From Fidelibacterota bacterium (GTDB lineage: Bacteria > Marinisomatota > Marinisomatia > SCGC-AAA003-L08 > GCA-002719095): a stretch of 39,227 nt of DNA. Location: assembly GCA_002705575.1 (NCBI GenBank), contig PAHI01000054.1, positions 1 to 39,227 on the forward strand. Reading direction: 5' to 3'. Positions 4,995-22,743 of this stretch are shown in pieces; within the stretch, counting starts at the first letter, position 1, and the number at the start of each line of letters is the position of its first letter. The translations under genes and the position numbers were made by a program. Below the pieces are notes generated by a model. It worked only from the letters and a program-made list of their open reading frames with translations. It was not told the DNA's origin and searched no databases.

Positions 4995-5018
4995 AAAATG
5001 TGATTTAAATCACATTTT
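4995..5018. promoter_or_regulatory. Perfect 24-bp palindrome resembling a CRP (Crp/Fnr family) site
   Basis: AAAATGTGATTT is followed immediately by its exact reverse complement. The core TGTGA-N6-TCACA matches the E. coli CRP consensus. On the minus strand a TATAAT lies at 4992-4987 and TTATAT at 4979-4974; the latter spacing (about 30 bases centre to centre) would suit a class II activator position. The element overlaps the stop codon of the PorV/PorQ-like gene and sits about 230 bases upstream of the large surface-protein start, so that gene is the likely target. Binding by a Crp/Fnr protein is inferred. Confidence 0.65.
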
Positions 5019-5856
5019 AAAAAGAATATTCTACTTGATAGAAAACAGGATTGCCAATTGAGTCATCATTTTTAACTAAAGTTGCAATTGAAAATTTTAT
5101 ATTTTCTCTTACTATATTAAACCCAAAGCTCATATCGATTTTATCAAAATCATCTAGATACTTTAGCCCTCCAATAAGCTCAAAAAACTTATTTTTATAC
5201 TTAAGTCCTTTGAAGGAGCCTAAACCTTTATCTTGATCATCATATATATCTAGAAATATTGAAATAGGAAGACTATTGAAGTCTTTCTTAATTCCAAGCG
5301 TTATAAGCTTTGGCAAGCTATCCCCACTTTTAAAATCACAGAATAAATTTTTACCGGAAAATCCTAATGTTAGTAATTCTGTTATTTTTTTCTGATATCC
5401 AAAATCTAAAGCAAATCCCTTATCATCTAGTTCTAATAATGTCATATATATATAACTTAAATTAAAACCCATACTATGCCCAGATTTAGAGAACCCTTTT
5501 GAATAATTAGCAAATATTATTCTTGAGCCAAAAAAACCTAAAGGAGCATCTGATGGACTTTCACCATATTGCTCAAGCTGATCAACTGCCCACGTATGAA
5601 CTGAGATTTTACTCCTATCAAATGTATAATTAATATATGACCCCTCAACATCTTGAAGCCAACTATTACTTGAAAAATTGAAATGTGTTTTTTGGTTGTT
5701 TGCCAATGAAGCAGGATTTATCCACGTATTAAAATTAGAAGCCACACCAAATCCTGAAACAGATAATGAGGTTGCGTTAAGTGGAAGCTTCGCAGAATGT
5801 ATCCCTACAGAAAAAAAGAAATTTAAACTCAATAATATTGGTACTATTAACTTCAT
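5017..5856 (-). CDS. PorV/PorQ-like outer-membrane beta-barrel protein
   Basis: 279 residues with a hydrophobic signal peptide (about 1-21). The mature part opens with the family-like pattern GFGVASNFNTWINPASLA, similar to the GxGxA...NPAxLA start of PorV/PorQ (UPF0164-type) barrels. It continues with alternating hydrophobic strands rich in Tyr, Phe and Asn and ends in an aromatic C-terminal residue (VEYSF), as expected for a BAM-assembled barrel. Its start overlaps the stop of the preceding barrel gene by ATGA, so the two are translationally coupled. In T9SS systems PorV shuttles cargo and PorQ tethers the attachment complex. Which role this one has cannot be told from sequence alone. Confidence 0.7.
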   Translation of the reverse strand: MKLIVPILLSLNFFFSVGIHSAKLPLNATSLSVSGFGVASNFNTWINPASLANNQKTHFNFSSNSWLQDVEGSYINYTFDRSKISVHTWAVDQLEQYGESPSDAPLGFFGSRIIFANYSKGFSKSGHSMGFNLSYIYMTLLELDDKGFALDFGYQKKITELLTLGFSGKNLFCDFKSGDSLPKLITLGIKKDFNSLPISIFLDIYDDQDKGLGSFKGLKYKNKFFELIGGLKYLDDFDKIDMSFGFNIVRENIKFSIATLVKNDDSIGNPVFYQVEYSF

Positions 5857-6788
5857 CTTATAAATGACAAACTAAACAAATTACTTATCCCTTCCTCTTC
5901 TTTGCCTAAATCAATGCAATAATCTAACTTAATCTTATAATCTTTAAATACATTTATATATGTACCCGCTCCCAACAATATCTTAAAATTGAACGAATCA
6001 TCGTTTTTAATACCTCTGTTCTGCATAGCACCAAACCTTAAGACATATCTATCTCTGTCAAATTCAGCTCCAGCTTGAATTCTATATAAATTGTTTTTTT
6101 CTGGATTCATATAGGATAGCTTTGAAAAAAATTTCATATTATCAAAAACACCAACCATCACTCCAAAAGAATTTATCATTTGTAAGCTTTCTTCAAATTC
6201 ACCTGATGATGATGTAATGCTACTCCAATTATATTTACCAAAAAAATTATTAGCAACCCAGGATAAAATCAACTCATCTGACAAATTAAAAATAAGACCA
6301 AAGTCTCCTGACAAACCTTGAGCATCATAATCATCAATGCTATTAAAAATTGATTTAAGATTAAACCCTAGTGATAATGAATTTGCAATAGATGCACCAA
6401 ACGATAACATTAAGTAGCTTTCAGATGAATCAAATTTACCCGTCCCTTCATTTACAAAACCTTTTCCTATTATATTATCAACTCCCGATCTAAAAAAAGA
6501 CAAACTAGCACCTGCAGATGGAGGTAGTTTGCGCGTAACACTAAAAGCTTGCACTGAACGATCAAGAGACATCATAAAATAACTAGAGCCAATTTCTAAA
6601 TCTTGAGATTTATAAAGTAGAGCAGGGTTAGAAAATGCATTAAAGCCTTGATTATATTCAGATGTAATCGAATTTCCAAGAGACATCTCCCGAGCATTAG
6701 TTGTATATCTTTGCCCAGAACCAGAATAACCTCCAAGATAATCGGCATATATTACTGAAACTATAGATAAAGCTAATATCTTAAACAC
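5853..6788 (-). CDS. PorV/PorQ-like outer-membrane protein
   Basis: 311 residues starting at GTG, supported by AGGAGG at 6802-6797, eight bases upstream. A short signal peptide ends around VIYA, with D16 as the likely first mature residue. The mature start, with REMSLGNS and GFNAFSNPALL, matches the conserved N-terminal strand and NPA turn of the PorV/PorQ family. Beta-strand patterns fill the rest, including GASIANSLSLGFNLKSI and GLIFNLSDELILSW, typical of these 14-stranded barrels. The C-terminus SLSFIR does not end in Phe. It follows the propeller gene by one base and overlaps the second barrel by four. Its position in the sprA operon supports a T9SS role, perhaps as PorV shuttle or cargo receptor. 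Confidence 0.75.
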   Translation of the reverse strand: MFKILALSIVSVIYADYLGGYSGSGQRYTTNAREMSLGNSITSEYNQGFNAFSNPALLYKSQDLEIGSSYFMMSLDRSVQAFSVTRKLPPSAGASLSFFRSGVDNIIGKGFVNEGTGKFDSSESYLMLSFGASIANSLSLGFNLKSIFNSIDDYDAQGLSGDFGLIFNLSDELILSWVANNFFGKYNWSSITSSSGEFEESLQMINSFGVMVGVFDNMKFFSKLSYMNPEKNNLYRIQAGAEFDRDRYVLRFGAMQNRGIKNDDSFNFKILLGAGTYINVFKDYKIKLDYCIDLGKEEEGISNLFSLSFIR

Positions 6789-6789
6789 T

Positions 6790-8454
6790 TTAAGATCCTC
6801 CTAGCACAGCTAACTTAACCCATTTATAACTACCATTATCATTAAGTCTGCAAAAATAAACACCATTAGAAACTTTCACACCATATTCATTAAATCCATC
6901 CCAAATAAACTCTATTTGATTATTTATCTCAATTGGATCAGATAATGTCGCAACGTAGTCCATGCTAAAATCAAATATATCAACTTTAGCTGAAATATTT
7001 TGACCTGGATATATAAAACGTACATAACCTTTCCCATTTAGAATATTGTATTCGTCATGGATAAATGGATTAGGATACACATCAAAAGAACTGTATCGCT
7101 CCCAAAAACGATAAATTGACCAAATAGGCGCAATAGGACTGTCTGATATGGCAACACCATCTTTACTGCCTACCCATAATTTTCCATCAATAACCTTTGA
7201 ATCGTAAACAACATCAGATAATATTTTTTCACTATCTAAATAATCTACAGGAGCATTAAAAGCCTCCCAATTTTCTCCGTCATTAGAAACATACAATCCT
7301 TGATTTGTTGATAAATATATATAATTATTATTAAAAGATATATTGTGAGCTTTTACCCCTAACTGAACGAGTTGATCTGGATATGCCCAAGAATTTCCAT
7401 CATCATCAGAATAGCTTGGAATACCTATATTTCCCACAGAATCTTTTTCCCAAGTAATAGCCCATAATCTATAAGATCCGTTTTCCATAAGCTGATGCTC
7501 AAATGCAATTACCCAATTATCAAAAAAACCTTTATCATATGCATTTAAGTGAGTCCAATTAATACAGTCTCCATTAATTACACCTTTATTTATACCGTTA
7601 GCTGTTCCAACCCATAAAATGTCATTAAAACTATGCACTGAAAAAGCCTTATGATTATCAAAATCAGAACTACAATCACCTACTGGGTTTAGTTCATAAC
7701 TACTTACATCAATGCTACCACATACTAAACTAGCTTGATTATCCATTGGTAATGGAATAATCTCCCATTCAGGATTTTCTAAAGTGTGATTAAATCTTCT
7801 AAGACCTCCAGCCCAACTAGATGAATATATGTAATCACCCATTATTTCAATATCGTAGGACACATTTTTAATCTCAGTAGTTACAGATAAATGCAAAATA
7901 TTATCTTGTCCTCCCCAGCTAATCTCATCATATATCCTTGTACATGAAATCTCTCGACCATCACAATCTAAGCAATCTTGCTCACATTCCATTTTATCTT
8001 CAAAAAAAACATTCTCAAAATCATGATTTGAGCAGCTCCATAAATTGGGCATACTATCAATAGGTTGAGGCATATAAAACCATGTTTGACCAGAATCCTT
8101 AGAATACGAAACTCCTGTACCTGCTGGCTGATAATCACCTATAAAAGAAACAGTAGTACTGCCAGATACAGCTATAATAGTCCCTTCAACATCAATAGCA
8201 GGATTACCTCCTTCAACCATAGCTTCTGAATCATAATTATAAAAATTAAAATTAATCCCATCAAAAATTGAATACCCAAGTCCATCTGCAGAAGTAAGAA
8301 GAATCCTATCTGATAAAACCCCAATATCAATAATCATATTTGATGGCAAGCCCTCAATATCTTGCCTTTCTAATTCATAATAAGGATTTAATGATAACGA
8401 ATACGGAGTTACAGATAAAAGTGTTTGAATAAAAATAAATATTAAAATATTCAC
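6790..8454 (-). CDS. Secreted beta-propeller protein with T9SS-type C-terminal domain
   Basis: I place the start at the GTG at 8454 (554 residues, MNILIFIFIQTLLSV). It overlaps the lipoprotein stop as GTGA and has AGGAG seven bases upstream; an ATG at 8472 would add six basic residues. After the signal peptide come repeated beta-propeller blades with BNR/two-component-propeller-like motifs (YSKDSGQTW, LYVSNDGENWEAF, LWVGTANGI, LWVGSKDGVAI). A Cys-rich insertion with EDKMECEQDCLDCDG lies near residues 150-170. The C-terminal 90 residues have YPNPF, a FlgD-like Ig fold and the GVKVSNGVYFCRL motif of T9SS sorting domains. It is probably exported by the SprA system encoded upstream. Substrate or ligand is unknown. 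Confidence 0.8.
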   Translation of the reverse strand: MNILIFIFIQTLLSVTPYSLSLNPYYELERQDIEGLPSNMIIDIGVLSDRILLTSADGLGYSIFDGINFNFYNYDSEAMVEGGNPAIDVEGTIIAVSGSTTVSFIGDYQPAGTGVSYSKDSGQTWFYMPQPIDSMPNLWSCSNHDFENVFFEDKMECEQDCLDCDGREISCTRIYDEISWGGQDNILHLSVTTEIKNVSYDIEIMGDYIYSSSWAGGLRRFNHTLENPEWEIIPLPMDNQASLVCGSIDVSSYELNPVGDCSSDFDNHKAFSVHSFNDILWVGTANGINKGVINGDCINWTHLNAYDKGFFDNWVIAFEHQLMENGSYRLWAITWEKDSVGNIGIPSYSDDDGNSWAYPDQLVQLGVKAHNISFNNNYIYLSTNQGLYVSNDGENWEAFNAPVDYLDSEKILSDVVYDSKVIDGKLWVGSKDGVAISDSPIAPIWSIYRFWERYSSFDVYPNPFIHDEYNILNGKGYVRFIYPGQNISAKVDIFDFSMDYVATLSDPIEINNQIEFIWDGFNEYGVKVSNGVYFCRLNDNGSYKWVKLAVLGGS

Positions 8455-9266
8455 TGACACTCTCCTGCGCATATTTCAATAATATCTTGATATTCAAGCA
8501 CATCAATAAATCCTTTTTGATCCTTTACTTCAAATTTTACCTTGAAAGTTCCAAAGCCACCACATACGGTAGAAGTCTGAATAGGTTTCATTGGTATTTC
8601 TACCTTATACACATATTGACTTAATGAATTTAAGCCAATGTAATTCAATTCCCAAGTTGGATCAAAAGCATACTCCTGATCTACAACTTGTTCATAAACA
8701 CAATCACCATCTATCATTTCTGCATTATAAAAATCTACTTTTTTTATATAAAATCTTATGTAATCAATATCTTGCCTACCATCCTCATCTTCAATAGCAA
8801 TAACCATTTTAAAAAGAGTTTCCAAATTATCACTTAAAGAGTGAGTTAAAGGTATATTAGGATACGTTGAATCAACCACAATTAACGGAGCATTAAAATT
8901 GATATCATATACAATTTCATCAATAATATTATCATCATCTTTTAAATTAATAAAAAGAACGTAGAGGTTGTCCTGGTATGCAATATTATCAATAAGAACA
9001 GAATAAATACCATTGCCCTGAATTATATCATTATCCTCATTGTCAATAACTGTATAAAAATCTAAATCTATAGGATCAAGCTTTAACTCCAAACTAGAAT
9101 GACTAATTTCTTTTGTATCAATTTGGATGAATAAAGATTGCTCATCTACATTATAAAACCAATCAACAGACTCTTTATTAAAATCATTAGTAACAACAGA
9201 ATCAATAATATCGGTTGTACATGAACAAATAAATAAAAATAACATATACATACTAGTTTTATTCAT
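8451..9266 (-). CDS. Outer-membrane or periplasmic lipoprotein of unknown function
   Basis: 271 residues. The N-terminus has a hydrophobic segment and a lipobox I-C-S-C with the acylated Cys at 16, so it is a probable lipoprotein. The rest is acidic and beta-rich, with two Ig-like segments: about 30-125, and 130-260, the latter containing EDEDGRQDIDYIRFYI and VKFEVKDQKGFID. The second resembles a fibronectin- or cadherin-like domain. Four Cys remain in the mature part (CVYE, STVCGG, ICAGEC). Its ATG overlaps the prmA stop (TAATG). Its place between prmA and the T9SS propeller protein suggests a cell-surface accessory, but I recognise no family. Confidence 0.65.
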   Translation of the reverse strand: MNKTSMYMLFLFICSCTTDIIDSVVTNDFNKESVDWFYNVDEQSLFIQIDTKEISHSSLELKLDPIDLDFYTVIDNEDNDIIQGNGIYSVLIDNIAYQDNLYVLFINLKDDDNIIDEIVYDINFNAPLIVVDSTYPNIPLTHSLSDNLETLFKMVIAIEDEDGRQDIDYIRFYIKKVDFYNAEMIDGDCVYEQVVDQEYAFDPTWELNYIGLNSLSQYVYKVEIPMKPIQTSTVCGGFGTFKVKFEVKDQKGFIDVLEYQDIIEICAGECQ

Positions 9267-10093
9267 TATAAATCAGCCTCTTTTCTTATAACTAGAGAAA
9301 TCCATTCATCCATTTGCATTAAACTTTCAGAGCAATAACCATTCAAAGCATCTTGAATAAAACTAGAATCAATATCTAAAAGACCTGCAACTATTAAAAT
9401 TGCTGAAGAATTAGACTCTTGATAAGACTTTAATATTTTTAAAATATTATTCCTGTCTATATTTGCAAGAATAACATCATAATTATAATTGGAGTAATCA
9501 CCAACATCTTCAATAGAAAAATTAATATCTTTAATTTTGTTTAAATTGCAATTCTTTTTGAAATTTTCTCTACAAATTAAATCGTTGTCAATAGCATCAA
9601 CAATCCTGCTACCCATAAGTTTTGCAGTGATCGATAACACACCACTACCACAACCCACATCTAGTATTTTTTTATATTTACCAATGTCATATTTTATCAT
9701 TTGACGAATCATTAGCTGCGTAGACTGGTGGTGCCCTGTACCAAATGCCATTGCAGGAAAAATTTTAACAACCAGTGGATTTTTATATTCATTCTGATCC
9801 CAATCAGGAATAATTACAACTTTTTCATCTATACTTACAGGCTTAAAATATTTCTTCCAATTTGTCATCCAATTTTCTGACTTAATAATTTTCCAATTAT
9901 AGTCTATATTATATTTTTTATCTAATTTTAAAACAATATCATTAACCACTTTTTTATGTTTTAATAAAAAATACATAATAACTTCTTGATCTAAATACTG
10001 ATTCCCTAAACTATACTGCTCAAAATAACTCGAAATTATACTTTGATCTAATTGATTTGTATTAATATTTAACGATGTCCAGGAATTACTCAT
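9266..10093 (-). CDS. prmA: Ribosomal protein L11 methyltransferase
   Basis: 275 residues. PrmA trimethylates ribosomal protein L11 with S-adenosylmethionine. Visible family motifs are ENWMTNWKKYFKP (linker to the catalytic domain, about 78-90), FPAMAFGTGHHQST (about 112-125), the SAM-binding LDVGCGSGVLSI (about 143-154) and DVILANI, the NPPF-like catalytic site. The N-terminal substrate-recognition domain is short and divergent. It overlaps the upstream cyclase-like gene by eight bases and the lipoprotein gene by one. A housekeeping gene inside a secretion operon is odd but has no sign of recent transfer, with the same AT-rich codon use as its neighbours. Confidence 0.9.
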   Translation of the reverse strand: MSNSWTSLNINTNQLDQSIISSYFEQYSLGNQYLDQEVIMYFLLKHKKVVNDIVLKLDKKYNIDYNWKIIKSENWMTNWKKYFKPVSIDEKVVIIPDWDQNEYKNPLVVKIFPAMAFGTGHHQSTQLMIRQMIKYDIGKYKKILDVGCGSGVLSITAKLMGSRIVDAIDNDLICRENFKKNCNLNKIKDINFSIEDVGDYSNYNYDVILANIDRNNILKILKSYQESNSSAILIVAGLLDIDSSFIQDALNGYCSESLMQMDEWISLVIRKEADL

Positions 10094-10988
10094 ATGTATC
10101 CATATTATATATAAACTCAGAAAGAACGCTTCCCACTACATGCAAACTATACTGTGATGTGTTATCAGGTATATCATTTATTGTATGCCAATATTTATAA
10201 TCCATATCTATGATATTAATTGAAGGGATTTTTGTTTCCATTGAAAATGATATATGATCATCTATAATTGAAGGACCCATATCCCATACAAAAAACTCTC
10301 CATACCCCATCATGGAAGCAATATTCCATACATGATTCATTAATTCAGGAGCCATTTGATAAGAATTTCTTTCCATTTTAATCTTTAAATCTTTATCTGC
10401 AACCATATCAACGCAAATACCAAATAAAGGAAGGTTTTGAGGATAACTTTGACTAAACAATCTTGATCCTATAGCCCATGTATCCGTACTTCCATAGGTC
10501 CCCATATCTTCTGCATCTGTAAATAAAAAATCAACACCTAAATTATTAAGCTTCTTCTTTTCCAGCTGGTCGATTATCCCAAGCAGAACTGCAACTCCAC
10601 TAGCTCCATCATTTGCTCCAAGTACTGGCTTATCATGATTTAATGGATTTGGATCTTTATCTGCAAACCTTCTAGTATCCCAATGAGCCATAAACAACAC
10701 TCTCTTATTTAACTTTGGATTAATTCTAGCAAAAATATTATATATTTTAACACTGTCTGCTGTTAACGGATCTTTGATTAAATGTTCATCAATCAATACA
10801 TCTTTAGAATATTTTGAAAGCTCATTAAAAAGATAATCTTTATATTTTTCATGCCCCTCACTACCAGGATATCGAGGACCAAAAGAACATTGCTCTAATA
10901 TTGAATCATATGCTTTCTTGGAATCAAAGCCAGAATAACTTGAAATCGCAAGACTAAAAAATAATATTATTAAATAAAATCTCATCAT
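10086..10988 (-). CDS. M28-family glutaminyl-peptide cyclotransferase (glutaminyl cyclase)-like enzyme
   Basis: 300 residues with an N-terminal signal peptide (about 1-19), so exported. Motifs match M28-type glutaminyl cyclases: AHWDTRRFADKDPNP (101-115), PVLGANDGASG with Asp127 as likely zinc ligand, FTDAEDMG with Glu160 as likely acid/base and Asp161 as zinc ligand, VDMVAD (Asp194), IIDDHISF (Asp243/244) and YWHTINDIPDN with Trp267 and His268 as zinc ligand. The DDHxxF and WHTxxD pair is shared with animal glutaminyl cyclase. These enzymes convert N-terminal Gln to pyroglutamate. The ATG overlaps the sprA stop (ATGA), and SprA itself is predicted to start with Gln after signal cleavage. An M28 aminopeptidase is the alternative. 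Confidence 0.78.
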   Translation of the reverse strand: MMRFYLIILFFSLAISSYSGFDSKKAYDSILEQCSFGPRYPGSEGHEKYKDYLFNELSKYSKDVLIDEHLIKDPLTADSVKIYNIFARINPKLNKRVLFMAHWDTRRFADKDPNPLNHDKPVLGANDGASGVAVLLGIIDQLEKKKLNNLGVDFLFTDAEDMGTYGSTDTWAIGSRLFSQSYPQNLPLFGICVDMVADKDLKIKMERNSYQMAPELMNHVWNIASMMGYGEFFVWDMGPSIIDDHISFSMETKIPSINIIDMDYKYWHTINDIPDNTSQYSLHVVGSVLSEFIYNMDTYE

Positions 10989-13900
10989 CCTTGAATTTTT
11001 ATATTAATAGTAAACCCAAAATCATTCTCTTTTGTTTTACCTGTTGTCAAGTCGTTTGTCAAAATGTAATTATAAAAAACTGTTCCATTTACATATTTTG
11101 TAAAATTATAATTTAAATTAGGTTTAAAACTAAACACCGTTGATCGAGACTGAGTATTAAAATCACTTAAGTCATTAACTATTTGAGTCGTTAAAAGAGT
11201 ATAGTTTTGTTCCCAGTCAACATTTAAAGCAAAACTAATAGTATTAGACAGCCTGCCAAAAAAAGGCATTACCATACCATCGGATCTGCTGAATTCAATT
11301 TTACTATTAATTCCATTTTTATACACTCTTTCTGTTGAAGTACCTTCATTATCTATATCAACAGAATGCTTCAAACTCAACTCTAAACGAATAGGATTTG
11401 CACCTTTAGTACGTGCATCTAACTTTATTAATGGAGAAAAGTTAATAGAGAAATCTTTCCTCTGAATCTCTTCATCAATAAAATTTTCTACCATTTGTCC
11501 TTTGTAATTATGAGAAAATTTGAATGTTTTGAAATACTCTTTAATAAATTTATTTTTTTCAAGTCCATTCCATGTGACTCCCCATGATATCATAGGGAAA
11601 CCTTCATCACCTCTAACGCCTAAAGGTAAAAAGGAAACAGTTCTGCTTGAATCGGGTAAACTAGCAGACTGAATACCCTTTGATGTTTTATTTTTGAATT
11701 CTATGTTTGTAATAGAAACATTCGGCACGAATGTCAAAGTAGGAAGCGTCATTTTAAATTCTCTATCAAAATCATGAGCATACGAATTTATCCGATCATT
11801 CTGACTATATCTGATTTTTTCAGGAGTCCCAGTCAACCCTAACCTAAAGTTATAATCTATAAATTGGCTAGGATCAATATTTGAAAAGTTATGCCTAGTA
11901 TTATAACTGTACTTAAATGTGATTTTTGATATCCTAGAAGCATAACTGTGCAACTTTTCAAATGTTTTTTTTATAAATTCATTTTCAATATCCTTAAAAA
12001 TTGGCTCAGATTTATTTGTTGATCGATTTCTACTATTTCTACCTGTTCTATTATTCCTTGCGCTACTTGATTGAGGCTTGTAAAAGACTCCAATAAAATC
12101 TTTTGGATTAAAATTAAAAACTGACTCAATATAAGTTTTGTTTTCAACAGTTGCTGATGGATTTTCATCTGATTCATTATTTATATTCCATTTATAGTAG
12201 GGATTATATTTAAAAGATGGAGATAGCCAATCTAATATGTCAGGAGAAAAAGAATTATTTAAATCTTCTGTAAGACTCTTTACTAATCCTGGAGAAAAGC
12301 TTTTAAATAAATCGGTCTTTGATTTAGAATACTTATCCATAAAAAAATCTAAATCGCTACTAACGTTTTTCTTATATCTTGAAAATACATTATCTGTAAA
12401 TTTATAATCTAATGAATAAGCTCTACTCATAGACAAATCATATGTATTTGTTTCTGTGCCACTTCTCATCATTTTATTTTGATTTGCCTCTGAAAGATTC
12501 ATACTTGTAGAAAGTTTTTCAGGTGAAAAATAAAACTTAGTATTAGATATAGACTCGCCAATTAAAGGTATCTCCTTAAATTTTTTGAAAGGTACAACGT
12601 AATTACCCTTATCAAAATTATACGAATAATTAATTGATCCATTAGTATTCTTAACTTTATCTTCATTGATAGTTACTGATGAATTTCTTTTTTTAATAAC
12701 TGAATAATTTAGAGATATCCTATCTAGAGTAGACCTTAATATCCAATTATCACTTTTTGTAGATTTGTTAAAAGAAGTACTAAATGAAAGTGTTCTATTG
12801 ATTGATTTTATTGAATCAGGTATAGTTCTTTGACTTTCTCCTTGAGTCAAAACATCTGGACGAGAAGGATAATATTTAGGAGTTCTAATCATAGAACTCA
12901 AGGACACATTTAATGGAACTTTTAACCCCCATTTTGAAGGCAAAAATAAATCAGGGTTAAATTTTGATTGCAAAGAGAAAAATTGCTCAGAATCTCCAGT
13001 CCCTAATCTTTCTTCCAGCCTATGAAAATCAGCATCTTCATTTTTATATTCAGCGTTTACACTTAAAAGATTTGAAAAATCAAGAGAAGTTTTAAGCCTA
13101 AATGCCTCTCCTTTCTCTTTTTTAACTCCAGTTAACCTTAATTCGTTAATATAAACTTTTCCATAAACCTTATTATCAGCGTTATTAACAACCCCAACTG
13201 TAATATATTCAATTCTATTAATAGCAGGTTCACCTTTAATTATAAACTCAGAACAATTATTGCAAACATCCTCAATATCACTTGACGAATCATCCCAAAA
13301 CCAGTAGTTTTCTTCTGAATTATACTCTGCAGGATAATCAAAAATATTATTCCCATTATAGTCTTCTAAGGGTTCTCCTTGTTGCCACTTACCATCAAGC
13401 TCTAAACCTGAATTTATAGAAAGATCTTGGTCATCTTCTTTAGGGTTATAAACTGTTAAAAAAGGATTAGAAAATTGAACTGACTTAAAATCATCTCCAT
13501 TTGGATCTTCTATAGTACATATATCGCAACTAGTTTTTGCACCTGGGCCATAAAAATCCCAATGAATAGGACCACAAATTCTTGCGCCTGAATCTGATAT
13601 ATATTCAAAAAATATTTCTCCTTCATTATCTATTGCTTCAGAATATAAATCTAAATATAAATCTTCTTCTAAATATCCTCCGTAAGGAAAATCTTCATTA
13701 TCAAAACATCCATTCTCATATAGACTAAAAACTCCATCTTTACCTGTATCTTCAAAAGTATCTAAAGATTTAATATTCAACTTATACCGTGTTAACTCAT
13801 CCATATTTATTTTAATATGATTATCTGAATCCCATTGATATTTAATAGGCTGCCTTAACTCATAAAACTGATCATCTTTACCTAACCTAAACAATAAATC

Positions 13901-16900
13901 AACATCTGAAAGATTTTGATTTACCCAATCAATGCCGTCTAAAGTGTCAATAGGACTACCATAGACAAACATTTCCATAAAATTATATGCAAAAAAATTG
14001 TTTTTATTATCATTGTTCAAATTTGTTAATACTTTTTTTATTGCAATCATATTTTCCGGTTCGATTCCTCCAGTATTATTATCTCTAGGATAAAAATCTA
14101 AAACCAATGACTGTTCTTTTAATCTAATGCCTGTATATTGATCATATTCTCCCTGAACTCCTGGGGGCTCAAAATAACTAGAATTATCTTGAGTGTTAAT
14201 AACTGTAATAGCAAATGATGAATCAGGCTCAAAAGAATCATAAGCTATATTGTCAATACTACTTTTACCAAGTTCTTTCCACTCATTACCTACAATATCT
14301 ATTTTTGCTATTTTCAACATATTATCACCGCTAAACTCTAACTGCTCATCATTAACATCATCATAATTCACCCATAATCTCATAGATCTAACTTCATCCC
14401 AATCAACTGCAGATACTTCAGATGAAATTGAGTTTTTAGAAAACTCCGATAATAATATTCTATAAAGTTTCCAACCCGTAGCAAGCCCACTATCATAATA
14501 AGTCTGATTTTCTAAATTATTATTAGATGATAAATTGAGTTTATACGTAAAGTAATCATTGTCTATATCTAAGCTATTATCATTATCTAAATCTTCTGAA
14601 TCTGGGTATCTATATTCTGAAGACAATCCATTACCCTCAGTTCCATTAATTTGACTATAATCATCTGAATATTGCTCAAAATACCAGTTGTCATCATTAG
14701 GATCATCACCTTCAACCTCATCATCAACCGTACACAAATCTGGATAGTCACATGTACACCCACCTAAACCATCTTCATATTGATCTGGGCATCCATCTAG
14801 ACCAACATCTTCTGAATCACTTAGAATACCGTCTCCTAAACCTGGACCATATATATCTTCATCCTCAGAATCTAACAATCCATTATTATTCATATCTTCA
14901 CTTATAAAACCAATATCTATATTAAGAACCATATTACTATCTTCAACTGATTCATCATTTAACCATATGTCTAAATACTTACTTTGACTTTGATCAAAAT
15001 CACTAGAATATAATTGAGTTGTTATACCATTCCATTTGGATTGCTCACTATCATCAGTTTGAAAAACAATTATTTTAGCCGTTGTATTATTTGCTTCATT
15101 AGAAACCTCTTGTTGTGGCCAAATATCTTGAGTGCTTATATCTACGAAAGGATTATACCAATCTAATTTACCTCGATCACCAACTAAAAGGAGATCTCCT
15201 TCTAAAATAGGGGGAGAAGACTTTTTCCAATATCTTTGTATAATACTTGGAGAACTTGTTCTTTTAGAGGACTCAAAATCATCTAAAAAAGCCTCACCTA
15301 TAGGATTTGGGTTAGGAGAAACTTGAGCATACTCTCCTTCTAAAAAAATACTAGAAGGTTTGTTCGTATCAATAAATGGCAATACGTTTACAGCATCTGT
15401 TAGAGCAGGTAATTTCCTATCATACTTACCTGATAAATTCCAAATAAAATTTCTCATTGGTTCATACCCAAAATCAACTCTTTCATCAACAATACTTTGA
15501 TTATAATAATAAAGTCCACCATTAAAATAATCATTGTCACTGTAATCATATTTAAAATGTAATCCTGCTAAAAGTTTTTGATCAAAAGATAATAATTCGT
15601 TTTCTTCATATGTAATCTCAAGATTTGCAGTAGGATCTAGAGCCTCTTGATTAATAAGATTTAGAGAGCCCGTAAAATAATCAATTGAATAATCCGTTCC
15701 TTTAATTAAACTTCTCCCATTTAATCTTACAGTTTCACTGCCTTCAACAATCATAAACCCTAAATCAATTGAAGAGCTCCTTAAAGACTGAGAATTCTTT
15801 ACTTTTATAATAAACTCATGTTCTCCAATTATTGTTTGACTATTTGTTGAAAAATACATAGCTGGCCCAGTGCTGCCTTCTGAAAACTCACTTTGAAAAA
15901 TTGAAAAAGGATCATCATCAACATTCAAAGGAGTATTTAACAGCTGTCCAATATCTTGCACATTTGTACCCCACTGTGGATTCTCATTTCCATCTATTTG
16001 TTCATAAGCAAAAGGTAAATGTGCAGGAAAAAACAACTCACCATATTGAGCGTTAACAATACTTGGGAATTGAGAATCTATAATGCCATCTCCAGATAAT
16101 AAATTATTACCATTTTGATCTTTACTATCTAATTTGAATAAACTTAAAAATGAATTCTTGTTATTTATCTCACTATGTGTTTGCTCTTCTAAAGTTCCAC
16201 CTACATAAGCTATTTCAACATCCAATTCATCTAGATTAATATTAGAACCTCCTAAAGCATACACATTTTTAAACATTAGTGGCCATGTAGGAGAATTTGG
16301 AGTTGATTGACCTTGAGCTTTTATTAATTTCATTTTTATTTTAGAATCAGAGTCTGAATTTAGATTTTGCAAATAATCATCATAAAAAATTGTATTAGTA
16401 GGATATGGATTTGAGCCTGAATAAGGAGATATACTGCCCCCTTCAAGAGTTCCTATTTCATATGAAATACCTACAATATCTTGGGAACTCAAAGATTTAA
16501 AACGTACATAGCCAAGTATTTGGTCAATTTCATAATCTACGCCTTGCTCCAATCTTATCCAGGCACCTTCTTCTTTATAAGAGCTCTCATCTGAAGGATT
16601 TAAGTAGGCTACACCTGGTGCAATACCAGAGTCTACGTTTACGACTCTTTTGAATAATTCAAACTTATAAACAACATATTCTGGATAATAAATATGCTGC
16701 AAGTCTTCATTCAAAGGGTAGTAATTATTTTTAAACGACTCATCAATAAAAAAGTATCGATCTTTGATAAAATTATAATCTGTTATGTAGGACCCAGAAG
16801 AACTTTCACCTGGACTGAATGTTTGAGAAGCTTTTTTAACTTTTTGTCTTGATACTATACCTTGCATTTCTAATGGACCAAAACGATTCACCATTTTAAT

Positions 16901-17734
16901 CCCAAAAAGTCCCTCACTTTTACCGCTACCGACATTAACAAATTGAGTTGATGGTAAATTAAGACTAATATTTCCTGCTTGTACTTCTTGAATAATTTGA
17001 TTGTCTTCACCGTCGTAGGTTATTGTCATATTATTTTGCCAATCAAAATCTGCCTCAGAATCTTGTTTAACTTTAACTGTCAACTTATCCCCTACTTTAC
17101 CCTCGACATTAAAGCGCTGTGTTTGATTAATATCAAGATCCCAGCTCTTGCTTTCATTTGAATTCAGATTTACCAAATCTTTATCTTCAAAAATAAGCTT
17201 CCCACTAATTGAAATATTACCATCAATATTAAGCGCTAAATTGGTGCCTGCAATATCTTGACTAACTAATGTCAAGGATTTGGAGCCATAGTTTTTACCT
17301 ATAGATATTTGGTTTATTCTTTTAATAGCTTCTTTATGAAATTTCTCTCTAAACTTAGCATTTAAAGCTCTTGGTTTATAATAATCATAACTTATAACAA
17401 CAGGATATTTTATATCTATATCTCCATGTTTTTCATAAACCATAAAACAACCATCAATTAAGGATACTTCATTTTTTCTTTTATATTTTCTTAATTTGTT
17501 GTTAATCCTTAGCAGTAAACCTGTTGAACTACTATCTCCTTTATATAAATATGATTTTTTATACTTTTTGAATGGATCTGTGAAACTATCATTAATATAA
17601 TCATAATCAAAGATACTAAATGAATGCACATCTCCTGATTGAGTAAAAGAAAAATTTATCCCAATGATAAAAAAGAGGCTTGCCAACACGAAGCGCTGAC
17701 AAGAGCATATTATTTTTATTATAGCCTTAAGCAC
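10985..17734 (-). CDS. sprA: SprA (Sov) family T9SS outer-membrane translocon protein
   Basis: 2249 residues, close to the usual 2300-2500 for SprA, which forms the very large single-chain beta-barrel pore of the type IX secretion system. A GTG start is used; the signal peptide ends at about FSFT, leaving Gln32 at +1. The N-terminal region has the SprA pattern SISGKLIFEDKD, VEGKVGDKLTVKVKQDSE and WQNNMTITYDGEDNQIIQEV. A segment rich in acidic Asn/Asp turns (DMNNNGLLDSEDED, EDVGLDGCPDQYEDG) lies near residue 960-1020, where SprA proteins carry an EDVGLDG stretch. The C-terminal third is long amphipathic strands. It lies 17 bases after rdgB and is coupled to the cyclase-like gene. PorV and Plug partners are expected; the two barrels downstream fit the first. 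Confidence 0.9.
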   Translation of the reverse strand: MLKAIIKIICSCQRFVLASLFFIIGINFSFTQSGDVHSFSIFDYDYINDSFTDPFKKYKKSYLYKGDSSSTGLLLRINNKLRKYKRKNEVSLIDGCFMVYEKHGDIDIKYPVVISYDYYKPRALNAKFREKFHKEAIKRINQISIGKNYGSKSLTLVSQDIAGTNLALNIDGNISISGKLIFEDKDLVNLNSNESKSWDLDINQTQRFNVEGKVGDKLTVKVKQDSEADFDWQNNMTITYDGEDNQIIQEVQAGNISLNLPSTQFVNVGSGKSEGLFGIKMVNRFGPLEMQGIVSRQKVKKASQTFSPGESSSGSYITDYNFIKDRYFFIDESFKNNYYPLNEDLQHIYYPEYVVYKFELFKRVVNVDSGIAPGVAYLNPSDESSYKEEGAWIRLEQGVDYEIDQILGYVRFKSLSSQDIVGISYEIGTLEGGSISPYSGSNPYPTNTIFYDDYLQNLNSDSDSKIKMKLIKAQGQSTPNSPTWPLMFKNVYALGGSNINLDELDVEIAYVGGTLEEQTHSEINNKNSFLSLFKLDSKDQNGNNLLSGDGIIDSQFPSIVNAQYGELFFPAHLPFAYEQIDGNENPQWGTNVQDIGQLLNTPLNVDDDPFSIFQSEFSEGSTGPAMYFSTNSQTIIGEHEFIIKVKNSQSLRSSSIDLGFMIVEGSETVRLNGRSLIKGTDYSIDYFTGSLNLINQEALDPTANLEITYEENELLSFDQKLLAGLHFKYDYSDNDYFNGGLYYYNQSIVDERVDFGYEPMRNFIWNLSGKYDRKLPALTDAVNVLPFIDTNKPSSIFLEGEYAQVSPNPNPIGEAFLDDFESSKRTSSPSIIQRYWKKSSPPILEGDLLLVGDRGKLDWYNPFVDISTQDIWPQQEVSNEANNTTAKIIVFQTDDSEQSKWNGITTQLYSSDFDQSQSKYLDIWLNDESVEDSNMVLNIDIGFISEDMNNNGLLDSEDEDIYGPGLGDGILSDSEDVGLDGCPDQYEDGLGGCTCDYPDLCTVDDEVEGDDPNDDNWYFEQYSDDYSQINGTEGNGLSSEYRYPDSEDLDNDNSLDIDNDYFTYKLNLSSNNNLENQTYYDSGLATGWKLYRILLSEFSKNSISSEVSAVDWDEVRSMRLWVNYDDVNDEQLEFSGDNMLKIAKIDIVGNEWKELGKSSIDNIAYDSFEPDSSFAITVINTQDNSSYFEPPGVQGEYDQYTGIRLKEQSLVLDFYPRDNNTGGIEPENMIAIKKVLTNLNNDNKNNFFAYNFMEMFVYGSPIDTLDGIDWVNQNLSDVDLLFRLGKDDQFYELRQPIKYQWDSDNHIKINMDELTRYKLNIKSLDTFEDTGKDGVFSLYENGCFDNEDFPYGGYLEEDLYLDLYSEAIDNEGEIFFEYISDSGARICGPIHWDFYGPGAKTSCDICTIEDPNGDDFKSVQFSNPFLTVYNPKEDDQDLSINSGLELDGKWQQGEPLEDYNGNNIFDYPAEYNSEENYWFWDDSSSDIEDVCNNCSEFIIKGEPAINRIEYITVGVVNNADNKVYGKVYINELRLTGVKKEKGEAFRLKTSLDFSNLLSVNAEYKNEDADFHRLEERLGTGDSEQFFSLQSKFNPDLFLPSKWGLKVPLNVSLSSMIRTPKYYPSRPDVLTQGESQRTIPDSIKSINRTLSFSTSFNKSTKSDNWILRSTLDRISLNYSVIKKRNSSVTINEDKVKNTNGSINYSYNFDKGNYVVPFKKFKEIPLIGESISNTKFYFSPEKLSTSMNLSEANQNKMMRSGTETNTYDLSMSRAYSLDYKFTDNVFSRYKKNVSSDLDFFMDKYSKSKTDLFKSFSPGLVKSLTEDLNNSFSPDILDWLSPSFKYNPYYKWNINNESDENPSATVENKTYIESVFNFNPKDFIGVFYKPQSSSARNNRTGRNSRNRSTNKSEPIFKDIENEFIKKTFEKLHSYASRISKITFKYSYNTRHNFSNIDPSQFIDYNFRLGLTGTPEKIRYSQNDRINSYAHDFDREFKMTLPTLTFVPNVSITNIEFKNKTSKGIQSASLPDSSRTVSFLPLGVRGDEGFPMISWGVTWNGLEKNKFIKEYFKTFKFSHNYKGQMVENFIDEEIQRKDFSINFSPLIKLDARTKGANPIRLELSLKHSVDIDNEGTSTERVYKNGINSKIEFSRSDGMVMPFFGRLSNTISFALNVDWEQNYTLLTTQIVNDLSDFNTQSRSTVFSFKPNLNYNFTKYVNGTVFYNYILTNDLTTGKTKENDFGFTINIKIQG

Positions 17735-17751
17735 AATTGTAACAATTCTCT

Positions 17752-18375
17752 CTAGGCCATCTCCTTATTTTTGTGGACAATAAATTCGGGGTAATTATCA
17801 TTTAGAGACTTTATTAAGTTTCTAATTGCTTTCCCTCGGTGTGATATTTCGTTTTTTTCAAGCATTGTCATTTCAGCAAAAGTTTTACCTATGTCAGGAA
17901 CAAAGAAAATCGGATCATAACCGAACCCATCTTCTCCTCTAGATTCTCTTGATATCTTACCTTTTACTACTCCCTCGACTATAAGTTCCTTTTTTTCATC
18001 CTTAAAAACCATTACAGTTTTAAATTGAGCAGTTCTATTTACAAAAGGAATTTTAGACATATCTTTCAATAATTTTTGAACATTATCATCATAACTACAA
18101 TTTTCGCCTGCATATCTAGCGGTATAAACTCCTGGCTGCCCATCAAGAGCATCAACTTCTAAACCTGTGTCGTCTGACAATACAGGAAGATTAGTTTTTT
18201 CAAATACTGTTCGAGCCTTAATAAGGGCATTATCAACTAACGTTTTTCCATCTTCAACTATTTCATCAATATCAACGAAATCATGCAATGATAAAACATC
18301 CCACTGAATACTAGAAAATGCTCTTTTAATTTCTAACAGTTTATCTTTATTATGTGTCGCTATAACTAGTTTCAT
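17752..18375 (-). CDS. rdgB: Non-canonical purine NTP pyrophosphatase (RdgB/HAM1)
   Basis: 207 residues, full length. The enzyme hydrolyses dITP, XTP and ITP to monophosphates, keeping deaminated purines out of DNA and RNA. Motifs seen are ATHNKDKLLEIKRAF (the family's N-terminal T/S-x-N-x-x-K motif), LSDDTGLEVDAL with the catalytic Asp pair, GQPGVYTARYAG, GEDGFGYDPIFFVP, and KNEISHRGKAI near the C-terminus. It is the first gene of the minus-strand run leading into sprA and lies back to back with tRNA-Phe, so the promoter for the operon is probably in 18376-18483. Confidence 0.95.
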   Translation of the reverse strand: MKLVIATHNKDKLLEIKRAFSSIQWDVLSLHDFVDIDEIVEDGKTLVDNALIKARTVFEKTNLPVLSDDTGLEVDALDGQPGVYTARYAGENCSYDDNVQKLLKDMSKIPFVNRTAQFKTVMVFKDEKKELIVEGVVKGKISRESRGEDGFGYDPIFFVPDIGKTFAEMTMLEKNEISHRGKAIRNLIKSLNDNYPEFIVHKNKEMA

Positions 18376-19023: not shown

Positions 19024-22000
19024 TTATAAATCTAAAATAATATTAATAGTAATTATAACATCTAATATATTAAGCTCTCCATCACCATTTGAGTCTGCTG
19101 AAAGAGCTTCTACTATAGTTGGCTCCATTATATTAAGAATAATATTTACAGTCAATATTATATCAGATATATTTACATTTCCATCTTGATTAACATCCCC
19201 TGGATTTACCGAAGCTCTTCCTGTAGTAATTAATATAGCATCACCATCACTTAAGGATTTCGCAGCTCTAGGGTATTGATTTCTATAGCTATATTGAATC
19301 CCCTCATTGCCAAGATGATTCTCAATTCCAATGGTTGCATAATTACCATGAGAAGGAGTCTCTCCTGCTCCGTAATCACCAAATGATGTATTATTAAAAT
19401 CTTGATACTGAATTTTGATTTCATTGTCACCTGTAATTGTTGGTACAGATGAGCTATTATAAATAATTATCTGAAATGTTTGATCATCTCCATCTGAACC
19501 ATCACAATCTCCAGCATAGCCCTGGATTCGGCCACAGGTTCTCATTTCATCCCATTGCAAAATAAAATATTCATTGTCTGGATCTACAAAAGTATAAATG
19601 TTCCCATAATCAGCAGAATTTCCATACCATCCACCTGCACTCTCTGTCATTAAATCATCCCAAAATGCAGCTACCATTGGTGAAGGTCCTCCAGCACCAG
19701 GAATAGAATAATTCCTAAAAGATGGAATATAGTCATTCCCTGAAAAAGTGCCGTGATCGCCAAAACTTATCCAACCATCAGCACTAACTAGCATTTCATT
19801 ATATGTAATACCATAAAAAGTGATTGGAAATGGAAGTTGAGTAAGTTTTCTAGTTCTATCTGTACCATTACCATTCCCAATATCATTAAGTCCTAAGAGA
19901 TTATTTGAGCTTGCAATTTCGATCCAATCATAATCAGGCGCCAATAAATATCCCACATCTCCAGAATCATAAATTCGATAACCGTATTCATCTGGACCAA
20001 GAGGATCTGTAACTGCCCCTTGACCAAATGTTGCATTAATAAATTCAGTTTGATTATATCCAGCATTACTGGTTATTTCTAAAGGTAGCGATATTGTACT
20101 TCCTGGAACAAAATAGCTAGTCGTATTAAATGTAAAAGAGATTTCAACACTTTCATTTGGGTTTAAACCTGAAACTGATTGAGGTGCAGAATTAAAACTT
20201 ATCATATCACTATTTGAAGATATAAACAGATCAACATCTTCAATAGAAACTGATCCATCATTTACAATTGATACATTTATTTCACGACTATTGAGATTTA
20301 CACTTGAAGATTGTGGAACTACTAATGCACCTGAGACACTAATTGGAACATGACAAATCACATCTCCATTATTTGATGAATTTATATTTAAACGTAATCC
20401 TAAATCTTGACCATCTATCACATTTTCTGCAATTGAAATCGAAAAAACTTCTCCATCAGAAGAAGAATTAAATCCTATGTTACCATAAGATGAGAAAGAC
20501 TGCACGACATTCACTGAGCTTGATATGCTAGAAAGAGTGGCCGAAACAGATGATGCTGTACTTCCATTATAATTTCTTATTGGCAAAACTATATCAATTG
20601 TTTCTCCTGGATTAACTTGACCATTCCCACTAATATCTACTTCTACTGAGCTACTATTCAAACTCAACAAATTATTTGAAGAAGAAACACTAATTGTTCG
20701 TTGAAGAGGTCTGTAGTTTCTTTTTCTTATTGTTACAATTATATCTTCACTACTATTAATGTTGCTCCAATTAAACGAAACTTTCCCAGAACTATCGCTT
20801 AATTTAGTAGTAAATATATCATCATTACCTTGAAGTAAAGTAACAATAGCATCATCAACAATATTATTATTAGTATCGTTTATAGTTAAATCTAAATTAG
20901 TAGTACCTTGACTTATTTGAGATGGAATATCAACATTAAAATCTTTGGGTGTATCAGTCCATAAATGAATAGCAGGATCACCCATCAAATTAGTCCACGC
21001 CATAAATGTTTTAGCGGCCTCAAATCCTCCATTTGAATTTGATCCGTATGTTCCATAAATTGATAACTGGCCATTAGCTACTGCTGCACCAGTATATTGT
21101 AACCCTTTAGAAAAGATTCCATCATACATGCCCATATCCATAATATTATTATAAGCCGTGTGTGTTCCTTGTGTAGCTACACCAACAGCTGCAACAGCTC
21201 CTCTAGGACTATTTTGGCTACCAGCTCTTAAAAAAGTCTCTGATTGACTTTCACCACCATAACCATAATATCCACCACCACCAAAATCACCAGTACCACA
21301 TGTTAAGCTAGTAACAAATGGTGTATCATAAGTTACAGGCATATCATTTTCTCCAATACCACTGATACCTCCACTAATCCAACCCCTAAAATTAACAAAT
21401 GCTACACCATCATCTAGCCTATCTTCAAGCCAATTTATGTAATTTCCTTGTGCATAATTTGTATATATCGCTTCAACTCCATTGTTTAACATTATATTTT
21501 CAACATACTGATTTGTTATTATCGTAGATTGACCAGAACTATTGTTTGGATCTGCAATTAAAGCAGCAGAGTCAAACATATTATTTGTTTGATTTATGCC
21601 CTTTTCATATTGAATTGTTTTATTGATTATAGTATTTAAATCATTATTGTTTGCGGCAGATATTCTACCAATCAAAATACCAGGGAGAGGATTATTTTCA
21701 TTGGCATACGTATAGTAAAGGTCAGAGGAACCACTATAGCCACCCCAAGAATGATAATTGCATGGAAGCTCGAAATCTCCACTAGTATCTCCAATCAAGC
21801 CAACAAACTCAGGAGGATTTTCCCAGCTTAAAGCATCTTGAATATATGTTTTTAAATTCCCTAATGAGGTATTTGTACTTGCAATTTGAGATTCTTCTCT
21901 TTCATAAACAATATAGCCTTGCTGATGCCTCCAATCAAAAAGACTTTTAACATAATTATTATCACATGCATTATCATTACCATCTTGACCACAAATATAC

Positions 22001-22638
22001 AATATAGCAGGCTTTTGGTAATCCTCATCTCTATCAGAACGCTCAAAGTTAACAATCATATCACTATATAAATCCTCAAAGACTCTTGAACGTTTCATGT
22101 TTATAGGCTCTCTAAATGTATTTGAATTGCTTTCATTTACAACAATTTCAATACCTGTAAAAACCTCTAGATTTTTTGATTGAGGATTATATGAAAAAGG
22201 TGTGACTGATACTGTTACCAACTCCATATTTCTAACTTTAAACCTTTCAGAAACTAAAACATTATTAAAAGGATACTTTTTAGAACTGCTATAAATATCA
22301 CTATTTTTTACAGAAATTTCATTTTCTTTATAATCAACACCTTGATATGGATATAAATCAACGTTTTCTATAACATAAGAATCCTTTGCTACGAAATCAA
22401 AACTATATTCCTTAGAAGTGTCAACAAGGTATAAAACCTTATATGCTGGGAGCTCTGGCATGCCTATCTCTGAATCAGTACCTTGGTTATCTTTAATAGC
22501 TTTATGATAACCAGATTTACTTTCTAATTCAAATTCTTGTATTTCAAATAGTATGTTTTTTCCATTTGAAGTAAACTGTTTAGCGAACAAGCCACTGAAC
22601 AAAAAAGATACCAATATTACTATAAAATTGTAACGCAT
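19024..22638 (-). CDS. Gingipain-type (C25 family) secreted peptidase-like protein with C-terminal dockerin
   Basis: 1204 residues from the ATG at 22638, chosen because GGGGAG lies six bases upstream and the signal peptide follows (MRYNFIVILVSFLFSGLFA). A propeptide-like region extends to about 205. The C25-like core (about 210-565) contains PAILYICG, FVGLIGDTSGDF, DLYYTYAN, ILIGRISAANNNDL and TSLTCGTGDFGG with the candidate nucleophile Cys447. Where gingipains have a GHG histidine motif this protein reads VNFRGWISGG (about 415-424), so activity is uncertain. CARDB/Ig-like domains follow, then a beta-sandwich with FYGITYNEMLVSADGWISFG. The C-terminus is two calcium-loop dockerin repeats (GDVNQDGNVNISDIIL, DSNGDGELNILDVIIT) and no T9SS sorting domain is visible. 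It is transcribed divergently from the ROK gene. Confidence 0.85.
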   Translation of the reverse strand: MRYNFIVILVSFLFSGLFAKQFTSNGKNILFEIQEFELESKSGYHKAIKDNQGTDSEIGMPELPAYKVLYLVDTSKEYSFDFVAKDSYVIENVDLYPYQGVDYKENEISVKNSDIYSSSKKYPFNNVLVSERFKVRNMELVTVSVTPFSYNPQSKNLEVFTGIEIVVNESNSNTFREPINMKRSRVFEDLYSDMIVNFERSDRDEDYQKPAILYICGQDGNDNACDNNYVKSLFDWRHQQGYIVYEREESQIASTNTSLGNLKTYIQDALSWENPPEFVGLIGDTSGDFELPCNYHSWGGYSGSSDLYYTYANENNPLPGILIGRISAANNNDLNTIINKTIQYEKGINQTNNMFDSAALIADPNNSSGQSTIITNQYVENIMLNNGVEAIYTNYAQGNYINWLEDRLDDGVAFVNFRGWISGGISGIGENDMPVTYDTPFVTSLTCGTGDFGGGGYYGYGGESQSETFLRAGSQNSPRGAVAAVGVATQGTHTAYNNIMDMGMYDGIFSKGLQYTGAAVANGQLSIYGTYGSNSNGGFEAAKTFMAWTNLMGDPAIHLWTDTPKDFNVDIPSQISQGTTNLDLTINDTNNNIVDDAIVTLLQGNDDIFTTKLSDSSGKVSFNWSNINSSEDIIVTIRKRNYRPLQRTISVSSSNNLLSLNSSSVEVDISGNGQVNPGETIDIVLPIRNYNGSTASSVSATLSSISSSVNVVQSFSSYGNIGFNSSSDGEVFSISIAENVIDGQDLGLRLNINSSNNGDVICHVPISVSGALVVPQSSSVNLNSREINVSIVNDGSVSIEDVDLFISSNSDMISFNSAPQSVSGLNPNESVEISFTFNTTSYFVPGSTISLPLEITSNAGYNQTEFINATFGQGAVTDPLGPDEYGYRIYDSGDVGYLLAPDYDWIEIASSNNLLGLNDIGNGNGTDRTRKLTQLPFPITFYGITYNEMLVSADGWISFGDHGTFSGNDYIPSFRNYSIPGAGGPSPMVAAFWDDLMTESAGGWYGNSADYGNIYTFVDPDNEYFILQWDEMRTCGRIQGYAGDCDGSDGDDQTFQIIIYNSSSVPTITGDNEIKIQYQDFNNTSFGDYGAGETPSHGNYATIGIENHLGNEGIQYSYRNQYPRAAKSLSDGDAILITTGRASVNPGDVNQDGNVNISDIILTVNIILNIMEPTIVEALSADSNGDGELNILDVIITINIILDL

Positions 22639-22743
22639 ATAAAACTCCCCCAAAAAATTTAATCTACAACTAATTTATCGTTTAATTTATATACTATTGA
22701 AAATTAATTTGTTACATATTGTAAGAAGATTAATTTATTCGTA

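Follow-up and report, generated by a model that had tools for sequence, protein, structure and literature searches.

Does a bacterium outside the Bacteroidota cap its secretion translocon with pyroglutamate, and does it keep the gene of the capping enzyme beside that of the translocon? The question is raised by a stretch of 39,227 nucleotides from a Fidelibacterota bacterium (assembly GCA_002705575.1, contig PAHI01000054.1), called the window below and always meant at its full length, in which the gene of a protein with the M28 fold directly follows that of SprA, the outer-membrane translocon of the type IX secretion system (T9SS). In the Bacteroidetes, Gln stands at the first position after the cut (+1) in 71% on average of the substrates of signal peptidase I (SPI), and in more than 48% of them in 332 of 334 species; the available text of the paper describing this Q-rule presents it as Bacteroidetes-specific and calls its co-occurrence with the T9SS striking, and gives no mechanistic link between the two (PMC5837995). 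No title on glutaminyl cyclase (QC) or the T9SS in Marinimicrobia, the phylum of the window, was found among the open-access papers searched; one on PET esterases (PMC8767016) mentions Marinimicrobia once.

10086..10988, minus strand: type II glutaminyl cyclase, M28 fold, 300 amino acids, ATG start, with an N-terminal signal/anchor segment and residues D127, E160, D161, D194, W267 and H268
10985..17734, minus strand: sprA/sov-like gene of the T9SS outer-membrane translocon, 2249 amino acids, GTG start (TIGR04189, PDB 6h3i)
10985..10988, minus strand: ATGA overlap of four bases between the sprA stop and the cyclase start

Both open reading frames (ORFs) exist and overlap by these four bases, as a preliminary description of the window had reported. 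What is observed here comprises the two genes, how widely they are paired, the enzyme's active-site residues together with its predicted fold, and an excess of Gln at the predicted +1 position. The explanation that best accounts for them as a whole, and which we consider rather probable, is that translocon and cyclase are produced jointly, that Gln32 of SprA is capped, and that the cyclase serves a graded Q-rule.

The M28-fold protein as a glutaminyl cyclase

The ORF at 10086-10988 is matched by Pfam Peptidase_M28 (E 5.1e-27), the solved structures nearest to it by sequence are the bacteroidal glutaminyl cyclases, and its predicted M28/alpha-beta fold is close to the solved bacterial QCs. With the reference zinc ligands, catalytic residues and pocket taken from the available text of PMC7948796, the ligands D127, D161 and H268 correspond to P. 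gingivalis Asp149, Asp183 and His299, the bacteroidal Asp replacing HsGlu202; they are invariant across 153 QCs save for two gaps at H268. The catalytic E160 (HsGlu201) and D194 (HsAsp248) are present and invariant in the same 153 sequences. The aromatic residues of the pocket are W171, Y264 (near F294, the loop being shorter) and W267 for P. gingivalis Trp193, Phe294 and Trp298; in the Marinimicrobia QCs the Trp193 position is Tyr or Phe in 114 of 116, and the Trp298 position is Trp in 108 of 116. R118, R128, D132 and D175 are retained. The set Gln90, Pro129, Trp200, Pro204, His205 and Tyr209 of the bacteroidal QCs is not found in the window enzyme, which has R107 for P129 and F178 for W200 and, in its alignment with those QCs, no counterpart of Q90 or of the 204-209 patch; these are subgroup markers rather than catalytic residues.

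Could the protein instead be an amino- or exopeptidase that trims parts of the T9SS, with no cyclase involved? M28 aminopeptidases have Glu, not Asp, as zinc ligand, and Asp occupies that position in 153 of the 153 QCs, a count made on sequence alone, from which metal content is not readable. The active-site residues and the predicted fold speak for a QC, and we judge the peptidase reading very improbable. An M28 aminopeptidase devoid of the cyclase pocket, which the preliminary description had named as the outcome that would overturn it, was looked for; what we find is a member of the QC family with the pocket in place. Sequence, active site and predicted fold agree in placing the enzyme among the type II glutaminyl cyclases, its cyclase activity being a prediction.

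It has no lipobox. N-termini were read with a signal-peptide predictor of our own, in which all polar residues at +1 are scored alike; its first version finds a signal-like N-terminus in 99 of 118 QCs, with a lipobox in 28 of those 99. The QC N-terminus is variable (L046 to L162) and, because Gln is predicted at +1 in 20 of the 61 QCs without lipobox, in some species the enzyme may also act on itself and cap its N-terminal Gln.

SprA and its predicted N-terminus

The product of the upstream gene is matched by the NCBIfam model TIGR04189 at 622 bits for a cut-off of 200 (E 2.2e-186), which passes the equivalog score, and all its PDB matches are SprA of gliding motility (6h3i, E 8e-58).

17642..17734, minus strand: predicted Sec/SPI signal peptide of SprA, residues 1-31, ending in FSFT (own predictor, and relatives reading ..FA/Q, the slash marking the cut)
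17639..17641, minus strand: CAA codon of Gln32, predicted +1 of mature SprA; Gln likewise in 7 of 7 close relatives that are resolved there

The residues preceding Gln32 (CAA, 17641-17639) are MLKAIIKIICSCQRFVLASLFFIIGINFSFT. The signal peptide most plausibly ends at FSFT with Gln32 at +1, as had been proposed from this sequence. The second version of the predictor sets the cut at this place with a weak score of 3.2, and the first had set it earlier, after FFIIG. The best support for a cleavage before Gln32 is comparative: the seven close relatives in which the N-terminus is resolved (P0122, P0124, P0125, P0126, P0127, P0128 and P0129; 62-66% identity) all read ..FA/Q by eye at this place, a further close relative, P0123, lacking its N-terminus and standing outside the comparison. 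The start codon is uncertain, the database prediction P0121 (2234 amino acids) beginning 15 residues further in; the GTG is backed by relatives that begin MLEVIYKI, MLNSIYKI or MLDFIYKI, and the position of Gln32 is unaffected by the choice.

Within the same protein, residues ~949-1000 form an Asp-rich, Cys-bearing segment, from NNNGLLDSED (949) to CTCDYPD (993), with the look of a calcium-binding repeat; Pfam matched nothing there.

Range of the sprA-cyclase pair

A QC is present in 117 of 120 sampled Marinimicrobia genomes (search from a Candidatus Neomarinimicrobiota relative). The loci compared are the up to 20 kb around the best QC match in each of these 117 genomes, together with the window, 118 in all. 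SprA was found in 111 of them and lies upstream of the QC on the same strand in 111 of 111, at a distance within the set band (-80 to +600 bases) in 103. In six loci the genes overlap by 101-227 bases, the QC start having apparently been called too early; in L096 and L116 the SprA frame is broken, its last piece ending 9 bases before the QC and 1 base over it, respectively. In the seven SprA-less loci the sequence ends 0-1231 bases upstream of the QC, and a check for sprA elsewhere in four of the seven genomes (G042, G030, G081 and G074; the other three are G076, G092 and G085) found it reaching the end of another contig in G042 and G030 and in part on another contig in G081. The adjacency, proposed earlier as a test across relatives, is thus conserved in every testable Marinimicrobia locus.

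The claim that the cyclase is built into the T9SS operon of this lineage gains support over a far broader range than was supposed. In the Calditrichota, where 37 of 40 genomes have a QC, the two genes are adjacent in 18 of 20 loci (the best 20 of the 37), sprA lying on another contig in the other two genomes (G160, G152). In the Cloacimonadota, sprA occurs in 39 of 39 genomes and the QC in 19 of 39 at E 0.001, 17 of them strong; no sprA was found in the 17 strong QC loci, each of these genomes having it on a different contig (L199 lacks any sequence upstream of its QC). In a Bacteroidota sample, 28 of 61 genomes have a QC match, 19 strong, with sprA in 18 of these 19; no adjacency was found in these 18 genomes, the nearest distance on one contig being about 23 kb.

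17752..18375, minus strand: rdgB/Ham1-like pyrophosphatase gene (Pfam Ham1p_like), conserved upstream neighbour of sprA

The gene rdgB lies directly upstream of SprA in 90 of 116 Marinimicrobia loci; in the remaining 26, either SprA was not called or no gene precedes it. Among the Calditrichota, the 18 SprA-bearing loci have the QC behind sprA and yielded no match to the window rdgB upstream of it. The rdgB product is not known to have a role in secretion.

Gln at the predicted +1 position

The exported proteins encoded near the pair allow SprA to be compared with its neighbours, three of which recur below as families.

6790..8472, minus strand: propeller-like protein with a weak FlgD/T9SS-tail-like C-terminus (sub-threshold domain matches)
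5853..6788, minus strand: PorQ/PorV-family-like outer-membrane protein, below the curated cut-off; +1 Gln rare in the family
5017..5856, minus strand: second PorQ/PorV-family-like protein, below the curated cut-off

Unless stated otherwise, counts come from the second version of the predictor at a permissive threshold, with exclusion of lipoprotein-like N-termini and, except for SprA, of proteins with a further hydrophobic segment; those for proteins other than SprA are drawn from a gene-neighbourhood sample around the QC. In Marinimicrobia, Gln is predicted at +1 in 49 of 77 SprA versus 104 of 448 pooled exported proteins (SprA and QC excluded). The family of 6790-8472 gives 38 of 70, the PorQ-like family of 5853-6788 gives 7 of 67, the second PorQ-like family 15 of 40, and the remaining exported proteins of the loci 44 of 265. 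The first version pointed in the same direction (40/78 for SprA, 73/489 for others). Along the mature chain, the Gln frequency of SprA is 0.64 at +1 versus 0.01-0.12 at +2 to +15, and that of the other exported proteins 0.24 at +1 versus 0.01-0.05 later. The excess of Gln thus falls precisely on +1 and is greatest in SprA and one further family. Of the 120 SprA matches listed from the database, 77 have a resolved signal peptide and 35 of these 77 have Gln at +1. Reading SprA N-termini by eye gave Gln in 62 of 84 taken as clear, with 3 ambiguous, a subjective count that was excluded from the tests. An absence of +1 Gln from SprA orthologues, which would have spoken against the preliminary description, is not what these data show: the residue is conserved in the clade of the window and, over the phylum, strongly enriched.

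The Q-rule proper, Gln at +1 in most SPI substrates, was not found in these loci (104/448), and in the window SprA alone among the predicted exported proteins has it. There, +1 is Lys in the C25 peptidase and a 98-residue protein, Asp in the PorQ-like protein, the S9 peptidase and a 1588-residue protein with one further hydrophobic segment, Asn in the secretin, Ser in the QC and Thr in a 271-residue protein. The earlier statement that the other exported proteins begin with Lys, Asp or Asn was therefore broadly right. The 6790-8472 family often has +1 Gln in other genomes, but not in its window member.

A preference of signal peptidase in AT-rich genomes, independent of any cyclase, might produce such an enrichment: the Gln codon CAA is A-rich, and the enrichment extends to proteins that are not encoded beside the QC. 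The likewise A-rich Asn (4/54) and Lys (1/54), however, do not rise at SprA +1, the PorQ-like proteins of the same loci lack the enrichment, and the other exported proteins give only 4 of 37 in Cloacimonadota and 1 of 38 in Calditrichota. We hold this explanation to be improbable. In SprA itself, Gln was predicted at +1 in 4 of 15 Calditrichota proteins and in none of 11 resolved Cloacimonadota N-termini (20 of 39 genomes read; 4 with QC, 7 without).

Is SprA the favoured substrate?

The pairing could also be read as inherited gene order beside a cyclase that caps any exported +1 Gln, in a general, lineage-graded Q-rule in which SprA has no privilege. This reading overlaps with the one we favour, the enzyme activity being the same, and departs from it on whether SprA is favoured. 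It draws on the neighbouring 6790-8472 family, about as Gln-rich as SprA (Fisher p 0.31), on the +1 peak of the pooled other proteins, on rdgB, as fixed beside sprA as the QC is, and on a small-genome family in which 8 of 24 other exported proteins have +1 Gln versus 1 of 7 SprA. Against it, SprA stands well above the pooled others, the PorQ-like proteins from these loci stay low, and in Calditrichota the sprA-QC pair persists where the rest of the neighbourhood does not, in the 18 loci that lack an upstream rdgB match. We regard it as a tentative possibility of some weight.

Several further observations weigh against the explanation favoured here. Gln is not predicted at +1 in 28 of the 77 Marinimicrobia SprA, and in the small-genome family only one SprA of seven has it, though the QC active site is kept there. 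When means are taken per QC cluster at 65% (55%) identity, SprA falls to 0.45 (0.63), with 0.55 (0.35) for the 6790-8472 family, 0.12 (0.18) for the PorQ-like proteins and 0.16 (0.05) for others. On the QC tree, the +1 Gln state of SprA requires 18 parsimony changes, 14 of them on well-supported branches (Calditrichota rows included). In the window, Thr at -1 is a weak cleavage residue. The predictor is our own and uncalibrated on any Q-rule genome; in a Bacteroidota control of 7 short loci and 63 genes only 4 proteins, 1 of them with Gln, passed the strict threshold, which is insufficient for calibration. Since rdgB is equally fixed beside sprA in Marinimicrobia, conserved order by itself says little about function, and the adjacency may simply be inherited. 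The two genes also occur apart: G074 has a QC, and no sprA was found in its genome, and a 56-sequence profile found no QC in the SprA-bearing G029, G145, G146 and G151, where it gave nothing beyond weak, partial M28 matches in two of them, G029 and G151. Nor was a QC found in G050, whose SprA is in pieces; G005 yielded neither protein. Assembly gaps aside, SprA can therefore do without the QC.

In the FastTree QC tree the window sits on a long branch (1.34), and its place within the phylum is unsure. Whether +1 Gln in SprA varies together with +1 Gln in either of two further families was tested on the QC tree, with 9 and 10 independent pairs, and gave nothing significant.

The earlier suggestion that the cyclase may act mainly on SprA is supported only in part: +1 Gln is commoner in SprA than in the pooled exported proteins, but the Gln-rich 6790-8472 family and the small-genome SprA do not fit it. 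A cyclase directed mainly at SprA is thus a plausible candidate reading, and the same two families weaken the stronger one, in which SprA is the exclusive substrate. The results are in keeping with a Q-rule that is graded and has SprA as a favoured substrate.

A model for joint production and capping

In the model we propose, rdgB, sprA and the QC gene probably form one transcription block, so that the translocon would be made jointly with a periplasmic type II QC. SprA would be exported by Sec, and signal peptidase I would remove residues 1-31 and expose Gln32. The cyclase, with a single zinc held by D127, D161 and H268 and with E160 as the general base, would then turn this Gln into pyroglutamate. 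The capped residue may shield the N-terminus of SprA from periplasmic amino- and dipeptidyl-peptidases, thereby keeping the large translocon intact. A minority of other exported proteins would be served by the same enzyme, in a graded rather than general Q-rule.

The sprA-QC pair in two phyla outside the Bacteroidota constitutes a genetic link between the T9SS and the Q-rule, and the +1 Gln of SprA offers a concrete candidate substrate for testing the purpose of pyroglutamate in T9SS bacteria. Could pyroglutamate capping have begun as a maturation step of the T9SS translocon, with an ancestral cyclase dedicated to SprA, the pair being kept in Marinimicrobia and Calditrichota and the activity later generalised into the Bacteroidota Q-rule? 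We rate this conjecture as rather doubtful; if true, it would explain the shared distribution of the T9SS and the Q-rule.

Gene neighbourhood of the window

9266..10093, minus strand: prmA-like methyltransferase gene, overlapping the cyclase stop (Pfam PrmA, E 7.2e-48)

The genes around the pair are tightly packed on the same strand, with rdgB upstream and prmA, a small protein, the propeller-like protein and the two PorQ/PorV-like proteins downstream. The order rdgB-sprA-QC-prmA-x-x-PorQ-PorQ is common to the window, L046 and L049, and it is on this order and on the source names of database matches such as P0085, P0117, P0178 and P0184 that the assignment of the window to Marinimicrobia is based. 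The groups compared above take their names from the seed loci L001 (Cloacimonadota), L002 (Neomarinimicrobiota), L003 (Muribaculaceae) and L005 (Calditrichaeota). Of the 116 Marinimicrobia loci, only 37 have prmA immediately behind the QC.

Four further genes deserve mention. The ORF at 19024-22653 (minus strand) encodes a C25-family peptidase with a C25 propeptide and a C-terminal Dockerin_1 match, and matches no NCBIfam family at E 0.01. The S9 peptidase at 28652-30559 (plus strand) has a signal-like N-terminus and a sub-cutoff resemblance to the dipeptidyl-peptidase Dpp5, and might be one of the enzymes against whose N-terminal proteolysis pyroglutamate would protect. At 34657-36687 (minus strand) lies a GspD/PilQ-like secretin gene; the T9SS block may thus have another outer-membrane system, for secretion or a pilus, close by. 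At 33124-34656 (minus strand), a single ORF with NCBIfam MscS and CRP matches joins an MscS-type channel to a CRP-like cyclic-nucleotide-binding domain.

Comparison with known systems

The window SprA belongs to the same family as the solved Bacteroidota protein (6h3i) and is distant from it, the alignment at E 8e-58 falling into four stretches; its gene sits between rdgB and the QC, unlike SprA/Sov of the solved system, and the Bacteroidota differ in that the pairing is absent from the 18 genomes with both genes. The animal type II QCs (human 2afm, Drosophila 4f9u) share about 20% identity with the window enzyme and have Glu as third zinc ligand versus the bacteroidal-type Asp, in the available text of PMC7948796, which also describes the double-zinc site of the M28 aminopeptidases; two of these, from Aeromonas (1amp) and B. 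subtilis (BSAP, 6hc7), are less similar in structure to the window QC than the bacteroidal QCs are.

With those bacteroidal QCs (P. gingivalis PG_2157, T. forsythia, B. thetaiotaomicron), as far as they are described in the accessible parts of PMC5837995, PMC7948796 and PMC10653852, the window QC shares the enzyme family, the zinc/base set and the bacteroidal Asp ligand; it differs in the shorter loop before W267, Arg at P129 and Phe at W200. The P. gingivalis enzyme has a putative inner-membrane lipid anchor and belongs to a different three-gene operon (available text of PMC7948796 and PMC10653852), unlike the lipobox-free enzyme of the window. In the accessible part of PMC10653852 that QC is essential, pyroglutamate stabilises proteins, and the rule is called exclusive to Bacteroidetes. 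About a quarter of the other exported Marinimicrobia proteins have +1 Gln, versus the 71% average given in the available text of PMC5837995. What the two groups have in common is a T9SS in a diderm cell, a Gln that cleavage by signal peptidase I is predicted to expose and, as the Q-rule requires, a QC, which in Marinimicrobia is present in nearly all sampled genomes and, from its mostly signal-like N-terminus, is predicted to face the periplasm.

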